Assembly: GCA_003211275.1 (NCBI GenBank)
Contig: QCTE01000005.1
Coordinates: forward strand, 1 to 63,299
Source of the DNA: Synechococcus sp. AG-673-A03
GTDB taxonomy: Bacteria; Cyanobacteriota; Cyanobacteriia; PCC-6307; Cyanobiaceae
Reading direction: 5' to 3'
Length of the DNA: 63,299 bases
Each line of letters opens with the position of its first letter. Position 1 is the stretch's first letter. Positions 20,624 through 48,361 of this stretch are shown piece by piece. Made by a program: the position numbers and the translations under genes. The notes beneath the pieces are model-generated. The model was not told where the DNA came from. It did no database searches and saw nothing but the letters and a program-made list of their open reading frames with translations.

Positions 20624-22591
20624 GTGCTCGCAGTCCAGGGCAGCAAACGTCGTTTGAGTGTTGGTTTTCGAGGCAAGGAACAAGTTGTTCCAGCCCGGAC
20701 CATCGATTTAATTCACCCCCAGCCTGGCGACGTTGATCCGCCTGTCCGGCTGGGGGGTTTTCCATGGACATTCGACGCGGAGGATCTTGCTCAGGCCAGT
20801 CCCAACTGTCGCGACTGGGGCGAAGCATGGGTCCTGATTCTTGAATCAGATGAGACTGTTGATCTCACGCAATTCGCGGAGCTGGCTTGCGGGACTGATG
20901 CTGCGATCAGCAAAGCTGCCTGTTGGCTTGCTTTGCATCAAGACCAGGACTTTTTCCGCTGCAAGCAGGGAGTGATTCAAGCGCGACCTGCGTCCGAGAT
21001 CCGCAGCCGACGTGCTGAACGGCGCTTGCAGATCAAGGCTGAACGGCAAAGCAAGCGATGGATCCAGATCTTGAAGACACGACAACCCGTGGTCTTCAAC
21101 ACGCTTGATCCTCTTCACCAGATATGGATCAAGAGCATGCAAGAGCTTGTTGGCGAAGGCGTTGAAGAAGTCCAACTCGATGCTCAGCTGTTGCAGTCAC
21201 TGCAAACCGCGCGCATCGAAGCCAACGCCAGGGATCTCCGTCATCTGCTGATTCAGCTTGACCAGTGGGATGCACATCGACCTGCCTCAATGACGGGAAC
21301 GCCCTGGAACAATGGATTCAGTGAAACGCTGCTCCTTGATTCCAGGCAGCTCGTCGACAACAGTGAAGGAACGCTTCCTGGAGACGAACACAGACATGAC
21401 CTTACGGCTCAGGCCTGCGTCACCATCGATGATGCCGAGACCAGTGACATTGACGATGCGATTGCTCTGGAACGTCGACAAGACGGATCGGAACGTCTCT
21501 GGATTCATATCGCCGATCCAGGTCGCTTGATCCCTGAGGGCTCACCCTTGGATCTTGAAGCTCGACGTCGTGGCAGCAGCCTTTACCTGTCACGGGGCAA
21601 TCTCCCCATGTTTCCAGCTGACCTTTCGACAGGGCCCTTCAGTCTCAGAACCGGGCGCCGCAATGCTGCCTGGAGCACTTGGGTTGATCTCGACCAGCAA
21701 GGAGAAATCAGGGATTTCGGGATCCTGCGCAGCTGGGTCACCCCCCGTTACCGCCTCACTTATGAGGATGCCGATGAACTGATTGATTTCGCTCCACCTG
21801 AAGAGGCAGATCTTTCGGATCTGCATCAGCTGCTTGAACGACGACGACGTTGGCGGACGGATCAGGGCGCGCTGCAGATGGATCTCCCGGAGGGCCGTAT
21901 CCGATGCCGTGATGGTGAGCTGTCCGTGCAGATCACGGAGCCTGGTGCCTCAAGGACGATGGTGGCGGAGGCCATGATTCTCGCTGGTGCCGTTGCAGCC
22001 CGATTCGGATCGACCCACAACTTGGCGTTGCCGTATCGCAGTCAGCTTCCTGCCGAGCTTCCCTCGGCAACAGAGCTTGAGCAACTACCGGATGGAGCCG
22101 TTCGATTTGCGGCCATTAAACGTTGCCTGAGCCGCGGTCTGATGGGAACTCAACCCTCACCTCATTTCAGCCTTGGCCTCAACGCCTATGCCCAGGCCAC
22201 CTCGCCAATCAGGCGCTACGGGGATCTTGTTGTACAACGCCAGATCGCTGCTGTGATCAACGCTGAAACTCCGCTCAGCGAGGAGTCCATGCAAGAGCTG
22301 ATCGACAACTTTGATTCAGCTGTACGCGAAGGTCTCACCATCTCAAGGGAAGATCAGCGTCACTGGCAACAGGTCTGGTTCGAACGTCACCAGAGCCACC
22401 AGTGGCCGGTGGATTTCCTGCGCTGGCTGAGACCTCAGGATCGCCTGGGGTTGGTTCGTCTGGACGATCTAGCCATGGATGTTGCCGCTGAGTGCCCTGC
22501 GGGATCAGTGCCAGGAGACCCTCTCCTGCTGAAGGTCGATCAAGTCGATTCCCAGTGTGATCAACTCAGGCTGCTCGCCTTGGCTCGTTGA
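20624..22591 (+). CDS. RNase II/RNB-family exoribonuclease (catalytic residues intact)
   Basis: This 3'-5' exoribonuclease of the RNB family has 655 residues from the GTG at 20624. The active-site Asp cluster is intact in CVTIDDAETSDIDDAIAL, and the conserved TSPIRRYGDLVVQRQ segment is also present. No full cold-shock pair is obvious at the N-terminus, and the C-terminus (RLGLVRLDDLAMDV onward) may be a degenerate S1 fold. The start is uncertain. Upstream codons from 20552 (CKPGDLVGISDLKSAQL) look like genuine protein, but they contain no ATG, GTG or TTG, only CTG at 20552, directly after the rpsR stop in the same frame. It probably works in mRNA turnover with the ribosomal-protein operon. 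Confidence 0.93.
   Translation: MLAVQGSKRRLSVGFRGKEQVVPARTIDLIHPQPGDVDPPVRLGGFPWTFDAEDLAQASPNCRDWGEAWVLILESDETVDLTQFAELACGTDAAISKAACWLALHQDQDFFRCKQGVIQARPASEIRSRRAERRLQIKAERQSKRWIQILKTRQPVVFNTLDPLHQIWIKSMQELVGEGVEEVQLDAQLLQSLQTARIEANARDLRHLLIQLDQWDAHRPASMTGTPWNNGFSETLLLDSRQLVDNSEGTLPGDEHRHDLTAQACVTIDDAETSDIDDAIALERRQDGSERLWIHIADPGRLIPEGSPLDLEARRRGSSLYLSRGNLPMFPADLSTGPFSLRTGRRNAAWSTWVDLDQQGEIRDFGILRSWVTPRYRLTYEDADELIDFAPPEEADLSDLHQLLERRRRWRTDQGALQMDLPEGRIRCRDGELSVQITEPGASRTMVAEAMILAGAVAARFGSTHNLALPYRSQLPAELPSATELEQLPDGAVRFAAIKRCLSRGLMGTQPSPHFSLGLNAYAQATSPIRRYGDLVVQRQIAAVINAETPLSEESMQELIDNFDSAVREGLTISREDQRHWQQVWFERHQSHQWPVDFLRWLRPQDRLGLVRLDDLAMDVAAECPAGSVPGDPLLLKVDQVDSQCDQLRLLALAR
20716..20761 (+). 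terminator. Terminator-like hairpin inside the 5' part of the RNB gene
   Basis: A perfect 9-bp stem CCCCCAGCC (20716-20724) with GGCTGGGGG (20748-20756) encloses a 23-base loop that itself has a GGCG/CGCC stem. It is followed by G and TTTT (20758-20761). It sits 168 bases after rpsR, within codons of the RNB gene, and could attenuate readthrough from the ribosomal-protein operon. The T-run is short, so function is uncertain. Confidence 0.4.
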
Positions 22592-44221: not shown

Positions 44222-44590
44222 GTGACTCGCTCTCAACACCACTGGTCCTGCATGGACCAGTGCGGTGCCTGTTGCCGGCTGGCACCTGATGAACGCCAGG
44301 AAGCCATTGAGGCTCTGAATCCTCTTCAGCAACAGCAATATTTATCGATGGTGGGTGACGATGGCTGGTGCATTCATTTCGACAGTGGTGCAAGGCGTTG
44401 TCGGATTTACGATTCCCGTCCAGATTTCTGCCGCGTCAGCAGTCTGTGTGGCTTATTCGGCATCGAACCCGACCAGATGGACCGATTTGCGATCAATTGC
44501 TGCCGACAACAGATCCGTTCAGTTCATGGAGGTCGCAGCAGGGAACTGCGTAAGTTCGATCGTCTCATCCGTTCAACGGATCCTTTGTGA
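44222..44590 (+). CDS. YkgJ-family cysteine-cluster protein
   Basis: This 122-residue soluble protein is rich in cysteine and belongs to the YkgJ (CxxCxxCC) family, proposed to bind zinc or an Fe-S cluster. Conserved blocks are SCMDQCGACCRLAP, WCIHFDSGARRCRIYDSRPDFCRV and AINCCRQQ. The start is the GTG at 44222. The TGA stop overlaps the ATG of the first GDT1-like gene (TGATG), so the two are translated together. The context suggests a role in metal handling for the downstream transporter, but this is an inference. Confidence 0.88.
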   Translation: MTRSQHHWSCMDQCGACCRLAPDERQEAIEALNPLQQQQYLSMVGDDGWCIHFDSGARRCRIYDSRPDFCRVSSLCGLFGIEPDQMDRFAINCCRQQIRSVHGGRSRELRKFDRLIRSTDPL

Positions 44591-44919
44591 TGACTGATTC
44601 CGGCACACCACCACGTCCTGGTTTCACCACCGTCCTGCTGACAACCTTCACAACGGTTTTTTTGGCCGAGCTTGGCGATAAAACCCAGCTCGCCACACTT
44701 CTACTGTCCGCGCAATCAGGGCAACCTTGGCTTGTGTTTGGTGGGGCAGCACTGGCATTGATCTGCTCCAGCTTGGTCGGCGTTTTGGTGGGACGTTGGC
44801 TGTCAACCGTGATGCAACCGGAACGGCTTGAGCAGATGGCCGGATTGCTGATGCTGGGACTTGGGTTGTGGCTCGGTTCCCAAGCACTGCAGTCGTTGAT
44901 CTCCGCCAACCCTCTGTAG
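44590..44919 (+). CDS. GDT1/UPF0016-type transporter, half-size copy A
   Basis: This 109-residue membrane protein has three predicted helices and one ELGDKTQLATLLL motif, the hallmark of the TMEM165/GDT1 cation family. Family members transport Mn2+ or Ca2+; the Synechocystis Mnx protein is a manganese exporter with two such motifs in one chain. This gene encodes one half. The ATG at 44590 overlaps the YkgJ stop. The second half is encoded 42 bases downstream, so a heteromeric pair is likely. The acid-rich ELGDKT motif is fully conserved. Confidence 0.88.
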   Translation: MTDSGTPPRPGFTTVLLTTFTTVFLAELGDKTQLATLLLSAQSGQPWLVFGGAALALICSSLVGVLVGRWLSTVMQPERLEQMAGLLMLGLGLWLGSQALQSLISANPL

Positions 44920-44961
44920 AAGTCATCTCTCGATCGATTGGCCTTTGAACATCCTCTTGTC

Positions 44962-45267
44962 ATGAATCTGACCCTGCTTCTGTCCACGTTCGCCACCGTT
45001 TTCCTTGCTGAGCTCGGCGATAAAACCCAACTCGCCACCGTGGCAATCAGCGGGACATCCAACCGCCCTTTGGCCGTGTTTATCGGCTCATCATCAGCGC
45101 TTGTGCTGGCAAGCCTGATCGGTGCCATCGCTGGTGGATCACTGTCAGATGTTGTGCCTGCCGATTGGCTGCAGCTTTTGGCATCACTTGGTTTTCTAGC
45201 GATTGGACTGAAACTGCTTTGGCCACTTCTCAGTGGGACGGAATCCACCGCGACGGCCGACGACTGA
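44962..45267 (+). CDS. GDT1/UPF0016-type transporter, half-size copy B
   Basis: This is the second half-size GDT1 family protein, 101 residues from the ATG at 44962 (MNLTLLLSTFATVFL), with the motif AELGDKTQLATVAI. It has three helices and a short polar tail (GTESTATADD). It is only moderately similar to copy A outside the motif. In most cyanobacteria the two motifs lie in one protein of about 200 residues, so here the pair AB probably forms the functional Mn2+ or Ca2+ transporter. An in-frame TTG at 44938 would add eight residues and is less likely. Confidence 0.88.
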   Translation: MNLTLLLSTFATVFLAELGDKTQLATVAISGTSNRPLAVFIGSSSALVLASLIGAIAGGSLSDVVPADWLQLLASLGFLAIGLKLLWPLLSGTESTATADD

Positions 45268-45389: not shown

Positions 45390-47756
45390 ATGAAATTCAC
45401 GGTCGCTGACCTGCTAGATCAGGTCCCTGATGAGGGCACTCTTGAGATTGCCAAGCTCGAAAAGATCCTGCGACTGACCAATCGCTCAGAAAAACAGTCT
45501 CTCGAGCTTGCTGTTCAGGGTCTGACAAGGCTTGGAATCCTTGATCTCGATAGCGATCGAGGCATCAGCAGGGGAGCAGCAGTCGATCTGGTCGAAGCGC
45601 GTCTTCGCTGCAGCAGTAAAGGTTTCTGTTTCGCGATTCGTGATGACGGTGGAGATGACATCTATATCCGTGATCATCAACTCAATCACGCCTGGAATGG
45701 CGATCGGGTCCTTGTCAGGCTGACGCGTGAAGGAGGAAGACGCCGTTCCCCTGAAGGTGGAATCCAGTGCATTCTTGAGCGGGCCACGACAAGCTTGCTT
45801 GCTTCGGTGGAACAACAGGATGAACGGGTGATCGCTGTTCCACTCGACGACCGTTTACTGGCGTCGATTGAACTCTCTCCCGACGATGCTTCCCATGCGG
45901 AAAAACCGATTGGCTTAGCAGTTGCTGAGGTCGTACTGGATCGCTATCCAGTCGCACAGTTTCCGGCACGAGGTCATGTCGCTCGATCCCTTCCCCTCGA
46001 TGGTGGTGCTGATGCTGATCGTGAGCTGATGCTCACCAAGGCCAATCTTCACCAGCGGCCGGCGGCTCCTCGCGCGAGTTTCAAATCACCATCAGCCAAA
46101 AAACGTGAGGATCTCAGCGAGCAGCCCGCGTTGATGATCAGCGGCTGGACTTCAGATGCCGCTCCGGCACTGCCAGCTGTTCATGTCATTCCCTACGAGG
46201 GTGGAACCCGTTTATGGATTCATAGCCCCGCCGTGGCCGAGCGCCTGAGCCCAGGGAACAGTTATGACCAATGGCTTCTTAATCAGTCGGAAAGCCTCTG
46301 TCTCGGTGGACAGTGGATTCCGTTGCTAAGCCCTTCCCTTGCGAAGGCCTCTGGCTTTTCCGTCGGGGACGTGCAGGACGCTGTGTCATTGCGTCTGGAT
46401 ATCGATTCCGATGGTGAATGGCGGGATTGGGACTTTTGCCTCAGTCGAATTCGTCCTGTCGCTGAAGTGAACGCTGAAGCTCTCCATGCTTTGCAATCGC
46501 GTAAACCAAAGTCGAGAGCTGTTCCTGCCGCTTTGAAGTCGATCAAAGACCAAATCGGTCAGTTGGAAACACTGATTTTCTGTGCAAGCAAGCTGCATGA
46601 TGCTGAACGGCGAGAAGGTCGCATCGAACTGGATCTAAAGCGAGCTCAAGCGGACGACCTTGGTGATCTCAATCATGTGTCGCCTGATGGTGACGGTCAG
46701 AACTGGTCAACACCATTGAATGCCAGTTGCCCGAATTCGGTTCTCTCTGTATTGATTCGGCACGCCCATCGTGTGTGGGAAGAACACAGTCGAAATCTGG
46801 GTTTGCCAGCGATTCTTCTTGATGCTCCACCGGCGGACGATGCCGCTCTCAATGATGTGGCCAAGGCAGCCATTGCATTGGATGTGTCTCTTGAACTGGA
46901 CGAAGATGGGGTGCCCACACCCTCTGAACTTTGCCAAGCATTGGCGAACAGCGACGCGAGCCATGTCCTCAATCTGCAACTGAGACATGCGTTGCCAGAG
47001 AGTTTCTATCGGGTTTCAAGTTGCAATCAGGAGCCCGGTTCAGAAGGATCTGAACATTCATCAAGTGAGATCACTGTGGATCACTCACCGAAGCATGAAT
47101 CCGACAACAGCGACGCTGATTGTTCGGATAAGCAGCCACTTCAACCCTTTGCACCCTGGTGCTGCCCCACGCTGCATCAGGCAGATGTCATTAACCAGCA
47201 GGTGCTTTGTTCACTGCTCAATGACGGCAAGGATCGTCCAACAGTGCGCCAAAAGAACAAGGTCAAACTTGGGGAAAGAGGCGTTGCTGCCTCCGTCAGC
47301 TGGCCTTTGTTCACAGCGTCTCATGAGCAAAAAATCCTTGACACAATCCGTGAACGCACTGTGCAGAGGTTGAATGCACGTCGACGCCAGGTTGAAGAGC
47401 TCAAACGGGATGTGTTGGCAATGACCAAGGCTCGTAGTGCAGAGCCCATGCTTGAGCAGCAGCAGACCGGTGTCATCAGTGGAGTTCAGAGCTACGGATT
47501 TTTTGTTGAAATTGCTCCTTCAATGGTGGAAGGTCTTGTGCATGTCAGCTCACTGAATGATGACTGGTATGAATATCGATCCAGGCAAAATCGTTTAGTC
47601 GGCCGAAGAAGCAGGCGCGTCTATCAGTTGGGTGACAGCGTCGAAGTGAAAGTGCTCAAGGTTGATGTGTTGAGAAACCAAATCGATCTTGAAGTGGTTC
47701 CTGCCACTGCACCAGTTGCTGAGGATCCTCTGCCGGTGGCTGTGAGCGAGGAATGA
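45390..47756 (+). CDS. RNase R/RNB-like protein lacking catalytic residues
   Basis: This 788-residue protein follows the RNase R layout: a winged-helix start (EGTLEIAKLEKILRLTN), cold-shock-like strands (GFCFAIRDDGGDDIYIRDH), an RNB-like core and a C-terminal S1 domain (TGVISGVQSYGFFVEIAPSM). The RNB active-site Asp cluster should read TIDxxxxxDxDDA. Here the aligned stretch (residues 247-264, 46128-46181) reads MISGWTSDAAPALPAV, without the four aspartates. The FTSPIRRY segment is replaced by FAPWCCPTLHQADV after a disordered acidic insert. The frame is intact, so this looks like a pseudoenzyme, not a decayed gene. Homologues may be annotated as Zam (acetazolamide-resistance) proteins; I am not certain of that name here. 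ubiX follows with an ATGA overlap. Confidence 0.85.
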   Translation: MKFTVADLLDQVPDEGTLEIAKLEKILRLTNRSEKQSLELAVQGLTRLGILDLDSDRGISRGAAVDLVEARLRCSSKGFCFAIRDDGGDDIYIRDHQLNHAWNGDRVLVRLTREGGRRRSPEGGIQCILERATTSLLASVEQQDERVIAVPLDDRLLASIELSPDDASHAEKPIGLAVAEVVLDRYPVAQFPARGHVARSLPLDGGADADRELMLTKANLHQRPAAPRASFKSPSAKKREDLSEQPALMISGWTSDAAPALPAVHVIPYEGGTRLWIHSPAVAERLSPGNSYDQWLLNQSESLCLGGQWIPLLSPSLAKASGFSVGDVQDAVSLRLDIDSDGEWRDWDFCLSRIRPVAEVNAEALHALQSRKPKSRAVPAALKSIKDQIGQLETLIFCASKLHDAERREGRIELDLKRAQADDLGDLNHVSPDGDGQNWSTPLNASCPNSVLSVLIRHAHRVWEEHSRNLGLPAILLDAPPADDAALNDVAKAAIALDVSLELDEDGVPTPSELCQALANSDASHVLNLQLRHALPESFYRVSSCNQEPGSEGSEHSSSEITVDHSPKHESDNSDADCSDKQPLQPFAPWCCPTLHQADVINQQVLCSLLNDGKDRPTVRQKNKVKLGERGVAASVSWPLFTASHEQKILDTIRERTVQRLNARRRQVEELKRDVLAMTKARSAEPMLEQQQTGVISGVQSYGFFVEIAPSMVEGLVHVSSLNDDWYEYRSRQNRLVGRRSRRVYQLGDSVEVKVLKVDVLRNQIDLEVVPATAPVAEDPLPVAVSEE

Positions 47757-48361
47757 TTCCCTATGTGATCGGTATCAGCGGAGCTTCGGCACAACAGCTA
47801 GCTGAACGCACATTGCAGTGGATGCTGCGACGAGATTTGAGCGTTCACGTGATTCTCAGTCGTGGCGCCCACGAGGTCTGGCGCGCCGAGCGATCGATCT
47901 CGGTGCCTGTGGATCCAAGACTTCAGGAACGCTTCTGGCGTGATCGACTTGGGGTGAACGATGGACAACTGATCTGCCATCGCTGGAATGATCAATCAGC
48001 TGTTGTTGCCAGTGGCAGTGTGCGCACCAAAGGCATGGTGGTTGTGCCCTGTTCCATGGGAACAGTGGGTCGTCTCGCGGCAGGACTTGGCGGAGACCTG
48101 CTAGAGCGCTGTGCTGACGTCCATCTCAAGGAAGGGCGTCCTCTCGTGATCGCTCCTCGGGAAATGCCTTGGAACCTGTTACATCTACGCAACCTCACGA
48201 CCCTCGCTGAAGCAGGAGCAAGAATTGCTCCTCCGATCCCGGCCTGGTACACCCAGCCTGAAAGCATCGACGACATGCTCGATTTTCTGGTGATGAGGCT
48301 CTTTGACTCGTTAGGCGAATCCCTCACCGATCAGAAACGTTGGCAGGGGCCTCAGCCATGA
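47753..48361 (+). CDS. ubiX: Flavin prenyltransferase UbiX
   Basis: UbiX joins dimethylallyl phosphate to FMN to make the prenylated flavin used by UbiD-type decarboxylases, needed for plastoquinone-type and other prenyl benzoate routes. The 202-residue product has the flavin-binding start VIGISGASAQQLAERTLQW, the SGSVRTKGMVVVPCSMGTVGRLA segment, and the LVIAPREMPWNLLHLRNL with PPIPAWYTQPES tail. These blocks fit the family well. The start overlaps the RNB-like gene (ATGA), and its stop overlaps the next gene. A matching ubiD is not in the window. Confidence 0.95.
   Translation: MIPYVIGISGASAQQLAERTLQWMLRRDLSVHVILSRGAHEVWRAERSISVPVDPRLQERFWRDRLGVNDGQLICHRWNDQSAVVASGSVRTKGMVVVPCSMGTVGRLAAGLGGDLLERCADVHLKEGRPLVIAPREMPWNLLHLRNLTTLAEAGARIAPPIPAWYTQPESIDDMLDFLVMRLFDSLGESLTDQKRWQGPQP

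Follow-up and report, generated by a model that had tools for sequence, protein, structure and literature searches.

In this study, we asked what kind of protein is encoded by a gene of Synechococcus sp. AG-673-A03 whose product has the shape of the exonuclease RNase R and lacks its catalytic residues, and what such a protein may still do. The gene lies at positions 45390-47756 (forward strand, as are all features below) of the window, that is, the whole stretch of 63,299 nucleotides that was analyzed, and its translation is an open frame of 788 aa with no internal stops. An earlier note, made from the letters of the DNA, had suggested that the product could be a regulator that binds RNA and does not degrade it.

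Domain organization and loss of the active site

Pfam analysis of the frame detected OB_RNB (1.8e-18), RNB (1.9e-33) and S1 (1.7e-12) domains. Together with a fold match over the whole length, these gave the order CSD1-CSD2-RNB-S1, in which the CSD2 score was under the Pfam cut-off (22.7 versus 26.2 bits). CSD1 covers residues 67-130 (45588-45779), the RNB core residues 239-611 (46104-47222) and the S1 domain residues 689-768 (47454-47693). An AlphaFold model based on an alignment of 44 sequences (the window protein and 43 loci) had a mean pLDDT of 82.7 and a pTM of 0.82; most of the RNB core exceeded 85 and residues 546-582 fell under 50. The latter belong to a fast-evolving Ser/Glu/Asp-rich insert (residues 546-588; 47025-47153), which is predicted to be disordered. 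Both the domain order of RNase R and the disordered insert had been recognized in the earlier note, and the confident RNase R-like model of a full-length RNB-family protein agreed with it on both points; a small correction concerned the place of the insert, since the segment equivalent to RRY begins right after it.

RNase R chains were the best solved-structure relatives by sequence, with 8cdu at the top, and the model was also nearest to RNase R by Foldseek and VIA-align (E 6e-37; Z up to 36). The best Foldseek match was again 8cdu, RNase R on a 30S degradation intermediate, and the top VIA-align match was free Mycoplasma RNase R; the yeast pseudonuclease Ssd1 was among the fold matches (VIA-align Z 30.0). 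The window protein shares its predicted fold and its domain order with E. coli RNase R (rnr; PDB 5xgu, 8cdu), whereas the four catalytic Asp residues and the SPIRRY segment are missing and its score is far under the NCBIfam cut-off for RNase R (TIGR02063; 177.9 versus 597.85 bits).

The extent of the loss was established by alignment to E. coli RNase R. First, ISGWTSDAAPALPAV (residues 250-264; 46137-46181) replaces the metal-binding Asp cluster. D272, D278, D280 and D281 correspond to S251, P259, L261 and P262, so that none of the four metal-binding Asp residues of active RNase R is present and the canonical RNB metal site is absent. Second, FAPWCCPTLHQADV (residues 587-600; 47148-47189) replaces the FTSPIRRYPD block; SPIRRYP reads CPTLHQA here, and the catalytic segment SPIRRY is absent, with CPTLHQ in its place. 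The earlier note had reported the loss of both elements, and the alignment confirmed it.

The same note had raised acidic residues in a shifted register as an observation that would speak against its reading, which we checked by sequence only. D256 is the sole acid within residues 246-263, and 27% of 104 picocyanobacterial sequences have an acid in its column. Columns that are often acidic in the same sequences would favor a shifted metal site, namely column 257 (67%) and, just past the lost cluster, columns 267 (75%) and 270 (82%), at which the window protein has Ala, Ile and Glu, respectively. By sequence, we judged a shifted-register site in the window protein unlikely, as is a metal site built from other acids. 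We strongly infer that the protein is inactive, and it very probably has no metal-dependent RNase activity.

Identity as Zam and the conserved cysteines

It is almost certain that the gene is zam, which is sll1910 in Synechocystis PCC 6803 (Thomas et al., 2022, PMC9145284). No row of our trees carries the name Zam; the protein was identified by its architecture, its cysteines and agreement with the published description. Thomas et al. described Zam as a cyanobacterial RNB-family clade with a degenerate active site, present in every cyanobacterial genome that they searched and conserved mainly in the OB-fold domains (PMC9145284). In PCC 7002, the CSD1 cysteines C73 and C79 were required in vivo, the gel mobility of the purified protein responded to redox state, and deletion of zam reduced phycocyanin synthesis and altered PSI:PSII; the redox response, acetazolamide resistance on zam deletion and the phycocyanin and photosystem effects are published for PCC 7002 and PCC 6803 (PMC9145284). 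Purified PCC 7002 Zam had neither nuclease nor RNA-binding activity, with a caution from the authors about aggregation, and redox-dependent action on RNase E was proposed (PMC9145284).

The window protein shares with published Zam the CSD1-CSD2-RNB-S1 order, the degenerate active site, the invariant CSD1 cysteine pair and the presence of a separate, intact RNase II in the same genome. Thus, the pseudonuclease core of the earlier interpretation is already in print for this family, and the finding is real, not new. The catalytic loss, the retention under selection and the intact second RNB gene all stood and matched published Zam; RNA binding is only putative, as the purified PCC 7002 protein, which was prone to aggregate, bound none (PMC9145284). 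The earlier note had not recognized that the protein belongs to a family already named and studied, and had overlooked the conserved cysteine pair.

This pair is the Zam feature with the best functional evidence. In the window protein, the two invariant cysteines of CSD1 loop L12 are C74 and C80 in RCSSKGFCFA (45606-45635), equivalent to C73 and C79 of PCC 7002 Zam (PMC9145284). They were kept in all 104 picocyanobacterial sequences and in 104 of the 107 other Zams read, so that none of the four Asp residues matches them in conservation. Among the three exceptions, L244 has the first cysteine only and the frame of L229 begins after CSD1. The third, L148 (from genome G051), is a short protein of the Zam clade (691 aa) that has neither CSD1 cysteine and none of the four Asp residues, and so a naturally occurring departure from the cysteine rule.

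Further cysteines separated the two groups. C127 at the end of CSD1 (45768-45770) was Cys in 104/104 picocyanobacterial sequences and in 0/107 other Zams, which have mostly Leu (93) or Val (11) there, and this third CSD1 cysteine could change the disulfide chemistry. C304 was Cys in 97/104 picocyanobacterial and 0/107 other Zams, and C591 and C592 in 81/104 and 82/104, respectively, versus 3/107 each elsewhere. Conversely, C29, C216 and C321 were present in 91, 94 and 79% of other Zams and were not in the majority among picocyanobacteria.

Selection analysis revealed that the whole gene is under purifying selection, with dN/dS of 0.116 for the comparison with a homologue of 94% identity and 0.075-0.095 for those with four others of 84-87% identity; the frame is neither a chance one nor a pseudogene, in line with the earlier note's remark that it is kept. 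Across the five comparisons (L005-L009), dN/dS was 0-0.013 for CSD1, 0.033-0.059 for S1 and 0.071-0.112 for RNB. The lost-Asp stretch (residues 244-270) was looser (0.07-0.40), and the insert reached 0.29-1.1 in four comparisons and was saturated in the fifth. The value of 0.73 for RNB against the 98%-identical L004 comes from 3 synonymous and 7 other changes, too few for use, and L010 and L012 were saturated overall. Counts of positions at least 97% identical among the 104 picocyanobacterial sequences gave a similar order: 37/64 in CSD1, 44/117 in S1 and 48/417 in RNB, with CSD2 (residues 131-238; 20/108) less conserved than CSD1. Constraint is strongest in CSD1 and S1.

Decay of the active site across cyanobacteria

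The 206 BLAST matches came down to 189 after removal of 7 window and E. coli rows and of identical sequences. Picocyanobacterial counts refer to 104 distinct sequences (the partial L054 was left out), all of which have an open frame of more than 700 aa. Of the 107 other Zams, 50 were partly chosen for a high RNB score (L205-L234 have the best 30 scores, and 20 regions were picked by hand from the lists of matches), so that the frequencies of kept residues are biased. Among the matches listed, 119 scored above 300 bits to RNB, compared with 119 bits for the window protein; of the best 30 of them (L205-L234), 29 had D280-D281 and one had E-D. Matches to the window protein were found in 57 of 60 relatives (48/49 among well-complete genomes), and an RNB protein of one kind or another is present in 387 of 388 genomes of its class.

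First, no Zam outside picocyanobacteria kept all four Asp residues: 16 kept three, 31 two, 8 one and 52 none, with the column of D278 uncertain in some rows through loop inserts (e.g. L113, L221). D280, D281, R572 and Y573 were all kept in 46/107, R572 in 104/107 and Y573 in 106/107. In the other 57 sequences, three Asp residues were kept in 2, two in 3, one in 3 and none in 49; D280-D281-R572-Y573 was kept in 4 and R572 in 55. A loss limited to picocyanobacteria was rejected, because other Zams are degenerate too.

Second, picocyanobacteria have also lost the R-R-Y segment, of which most other Zams read keep at least part, and they have conserved residues of their own at the former catalytic places. 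Of the 104 sequences, the D272 column is mixed (Glu in 25), and the columns of D278, D280 and D281 have P in 99, L in 98 and P in 94, respectively, and R572 is His in 90. The replacement itself is conserved (W253 in 103, P259 in 99, L261 in 98, P262 in 94, A263 in 96), as is that of FTSPIRRY (P589 in 101, W590 in 102, C591 in 81, C592 in 82). On the residues read, picocyanobacteria are the extreme end of a graded decay, and their old active site appears to have been rebuilt for structure or binding. The kind of protein is known; among the open-licence papers searched, by titles and abstracts and by passages of the papers cited here, none described such picocyanobacteria-specific rebuilding or its residues. 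In addition, one record titled Bifidobacterium breve (L108) holds a picocyanobacterial zam (49% identity) and has probably been mislabelled or drawn from a mixed bin.

We built two trees, in which picocyanobacteria were represented by the window protein and 15 hand-chosen sequences of the 104, the second without L184, L180 and E. coli RNase II and without active-site columns. Zams formed one clade apart from cyanobacterial RNase II in both (73 rows, support 99; 123 rows, support 100). The second tree, a quick one with no mixture model and with long-branch warnings, required at least 2 changes for D280-D281, 7 for D272 and 5 for R572-Y573, all of these being minima, and a single early loss of the whole active site was rejected on these counts. 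As the two D280-D281 changes correspond to one clade of 76 rows (support 91) and the single row L241, loss of this pair was close to a single event on that tree. In both trees, near-intact Zams diverge close to the outgroup root, again with long-branch warnings, and this basal place may come partly from slow evolution. Since the Zam L145 is degenerate, a species tree could require more independent losses. In the simplest scenario, the cysteine function arose before full catalytic decay.

A comparable order has been argued for the fungal Ssd1/Dis3L2 proteins, whose conserved CSD pattern would precede repeated loss of the active site (PMC8097288). Like Zam, Ssd1 (PDB 7am1) has lost active-site Asp residues and conserved its cold-shock domains, with losses that vary across relatives (PMC8934651, PMC8097288); in Zam, the same combination of conserved CSD and lost RNB metal site was found, with CSD1 as the most conserved part. 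However, Ssd1 derives from eukaryotic Dis3L2 and binds RNA (PMC8934651, PMC8097288), whereas Zam is cyanobacterial, has redox cysteines and binds RNA only putatively. The comparison concerns only how the two proteins work. Zam may be a bacterial counterpart of Ssd1, a scenario that we hold tentatively and to which we give rather less than an even chance: an RNase R-like ancestor would first have fixed a redox-cysteine function of CSD1, its catalytic site would then have decayed stepwise with repeated D272 and R-Y changes, and the dead site would have been rebuilt in picocyanobacteria into a new conserved surface (W253, P259-x-L-P-A and A-P-W-C-C-P, plus C127), some lineages with D280-D281, R-R-Y and sometimes D272 being perhaps weakly active and bifunctional.

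Possible modes of action and genomic context

The best reading of the window protein, which we consider probable, is a redox-controlled pseudonuclease that uses CSD1 and S1 to act, plausibly, on RNase E or RNA. Zam would then derive from an RNase R-like exonuclease and, in the picocyanobacterial branch, would have given up cutting RNA. Oxidation and reduction of C74-C80 would switch the binding surface of CSD1, the switched CSD1 and the S1 domain would recruit RNA or RNase E, and RNA turnover would be tuned to the photosynthetic redox state without cutting by Zam itself. The redox switch on CSD1 is the likelier part of this scheme and has good odds; action through RNase E falls slightly short of an even chance. 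A review reports that Anabaena Alr1240, besides binding RNase E and stimulating it, breaks down unstructured RNA (PMC10989914), and Thomas et al. identified this RNase E partner as Zam (PMC9145284). If both reports hold, some Zams may be active. The RNase E link of Zam rests on this one partner protein. The transcription unit of alr1240 (alr1240-alr1242) has an antisense partner in a study of nitrogen-regulated antisense transcription (PMC10287535).

Zam could also resemble fungal Ssd1 and bind mRNA as a repressor or chaperone, working through an outer CSD surface and not RNase E. The shared pattern of conserved CSDs and lost active site (PMC8097288, PMC8934651), the presence of Ssd1 among the fold matches and conserved R, K and F residues in the CSD1 loop are consistent with this possibility, but purified PCC 7002 Zam bound no RNA among the substrates tested (PMC9145284), and we regard it as doubtful. 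It is more unlikely still that Zam works on the ribosome, binding 30S in the manner of RNase R and blocking or regulating ribosome decay without executing it. The high conservation of S1 points in this direction, as does 8cdu, the top match by sequence and by Foldseek, in which RNase R sits on a 30S degradation intermediate; however, that match may merely reflect a well-resolved full-length RNase R, the top VIA-align row was the free Mycoplasma enzyme, and we came across no sign that Zam binds ribosomes.

Cryptic nuclease activity of the window protein through a non-canonical site would fit the reported activity of Anabaena Alr1240 (PMC10989914), the many other Zams that retain D280-D281 and R-Y, and the frequently acidic columns 257, 267 and 270, but it is very unlikely, as an acid is not the usual residue at any of the four positions in picocyanobacteria, SPIRRY is lost and the window protein is non-acidic at columns 257 and 267. 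Finally, relaxed constraint on a gene heading to loss, which the fast insert, the loose lost-Asp stretch and the RNB value against L004 might suggest, is hardly credible given the overall dN/dS of about 0.1, on which pseudogene decay was rejected, the long frames in all 104 sequences and the matches in 57/60 relatives.

The preferred reading, a redox-controlled pseudonuclease, makes Zam a cyanobacteria-wide candidate for a direct link from photosynthetic redox state to RNA turnover. The graded decay from three Asp residues to none offers a natural series for the change from nuclease to regulator, and the picocyanobacterial proteins point to C127, W253 and W590 as specific residues of interest. 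Picocyanobacterial genera dominate the open ocean.

With regard to genomic context, the gene for the flavin prenyltransferase UbiX (ubiX, 47753-48361) overlaps zam at an ATGA junction, as the earlier note had seen. Where picocyanobacterial loci offer at least 700 nt of room, it lies directly downstream on the same strand, within 300 nt, in 109/109, and the same arrangement occurs in 26/53 non-picocyanobacterial loci (loci not de-duplicated). Just upstream of zam, two tandem small frames (44587-44919 and 44938-45267) encode one GDT1 divalent cation/proton antiporter domain each (PF01169; 1.4e-23 and 1.7e-21), and hence a transporter split over two genes.

The other RNB gene of the window (20624-22591) is RNase II-like and, as had been noted before, intact: the DDDD cluster and SPIRRY are kept in the alignment. 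These two were the only RNB genes in the genome assembly, which is 70% complete. In some cyanobacteria, intact DDDD and SP-x-R-R also occur in a third RNB protein (L185-L189, all under one family code, f31, and L180, L184, L190 and L193); in the first tree, six proteins of this type fell outside both the Zam and the main RNase II branch. In a phylum-wide sample, 75 of 146 genomes had no RNB protein, and all 20 among those listed were outside the window's class. Outside this class, four genomes (G062, G068, G075 and G090) each carry one RNase II-like gene whose Asp residues are intact (L170, L172-L174).
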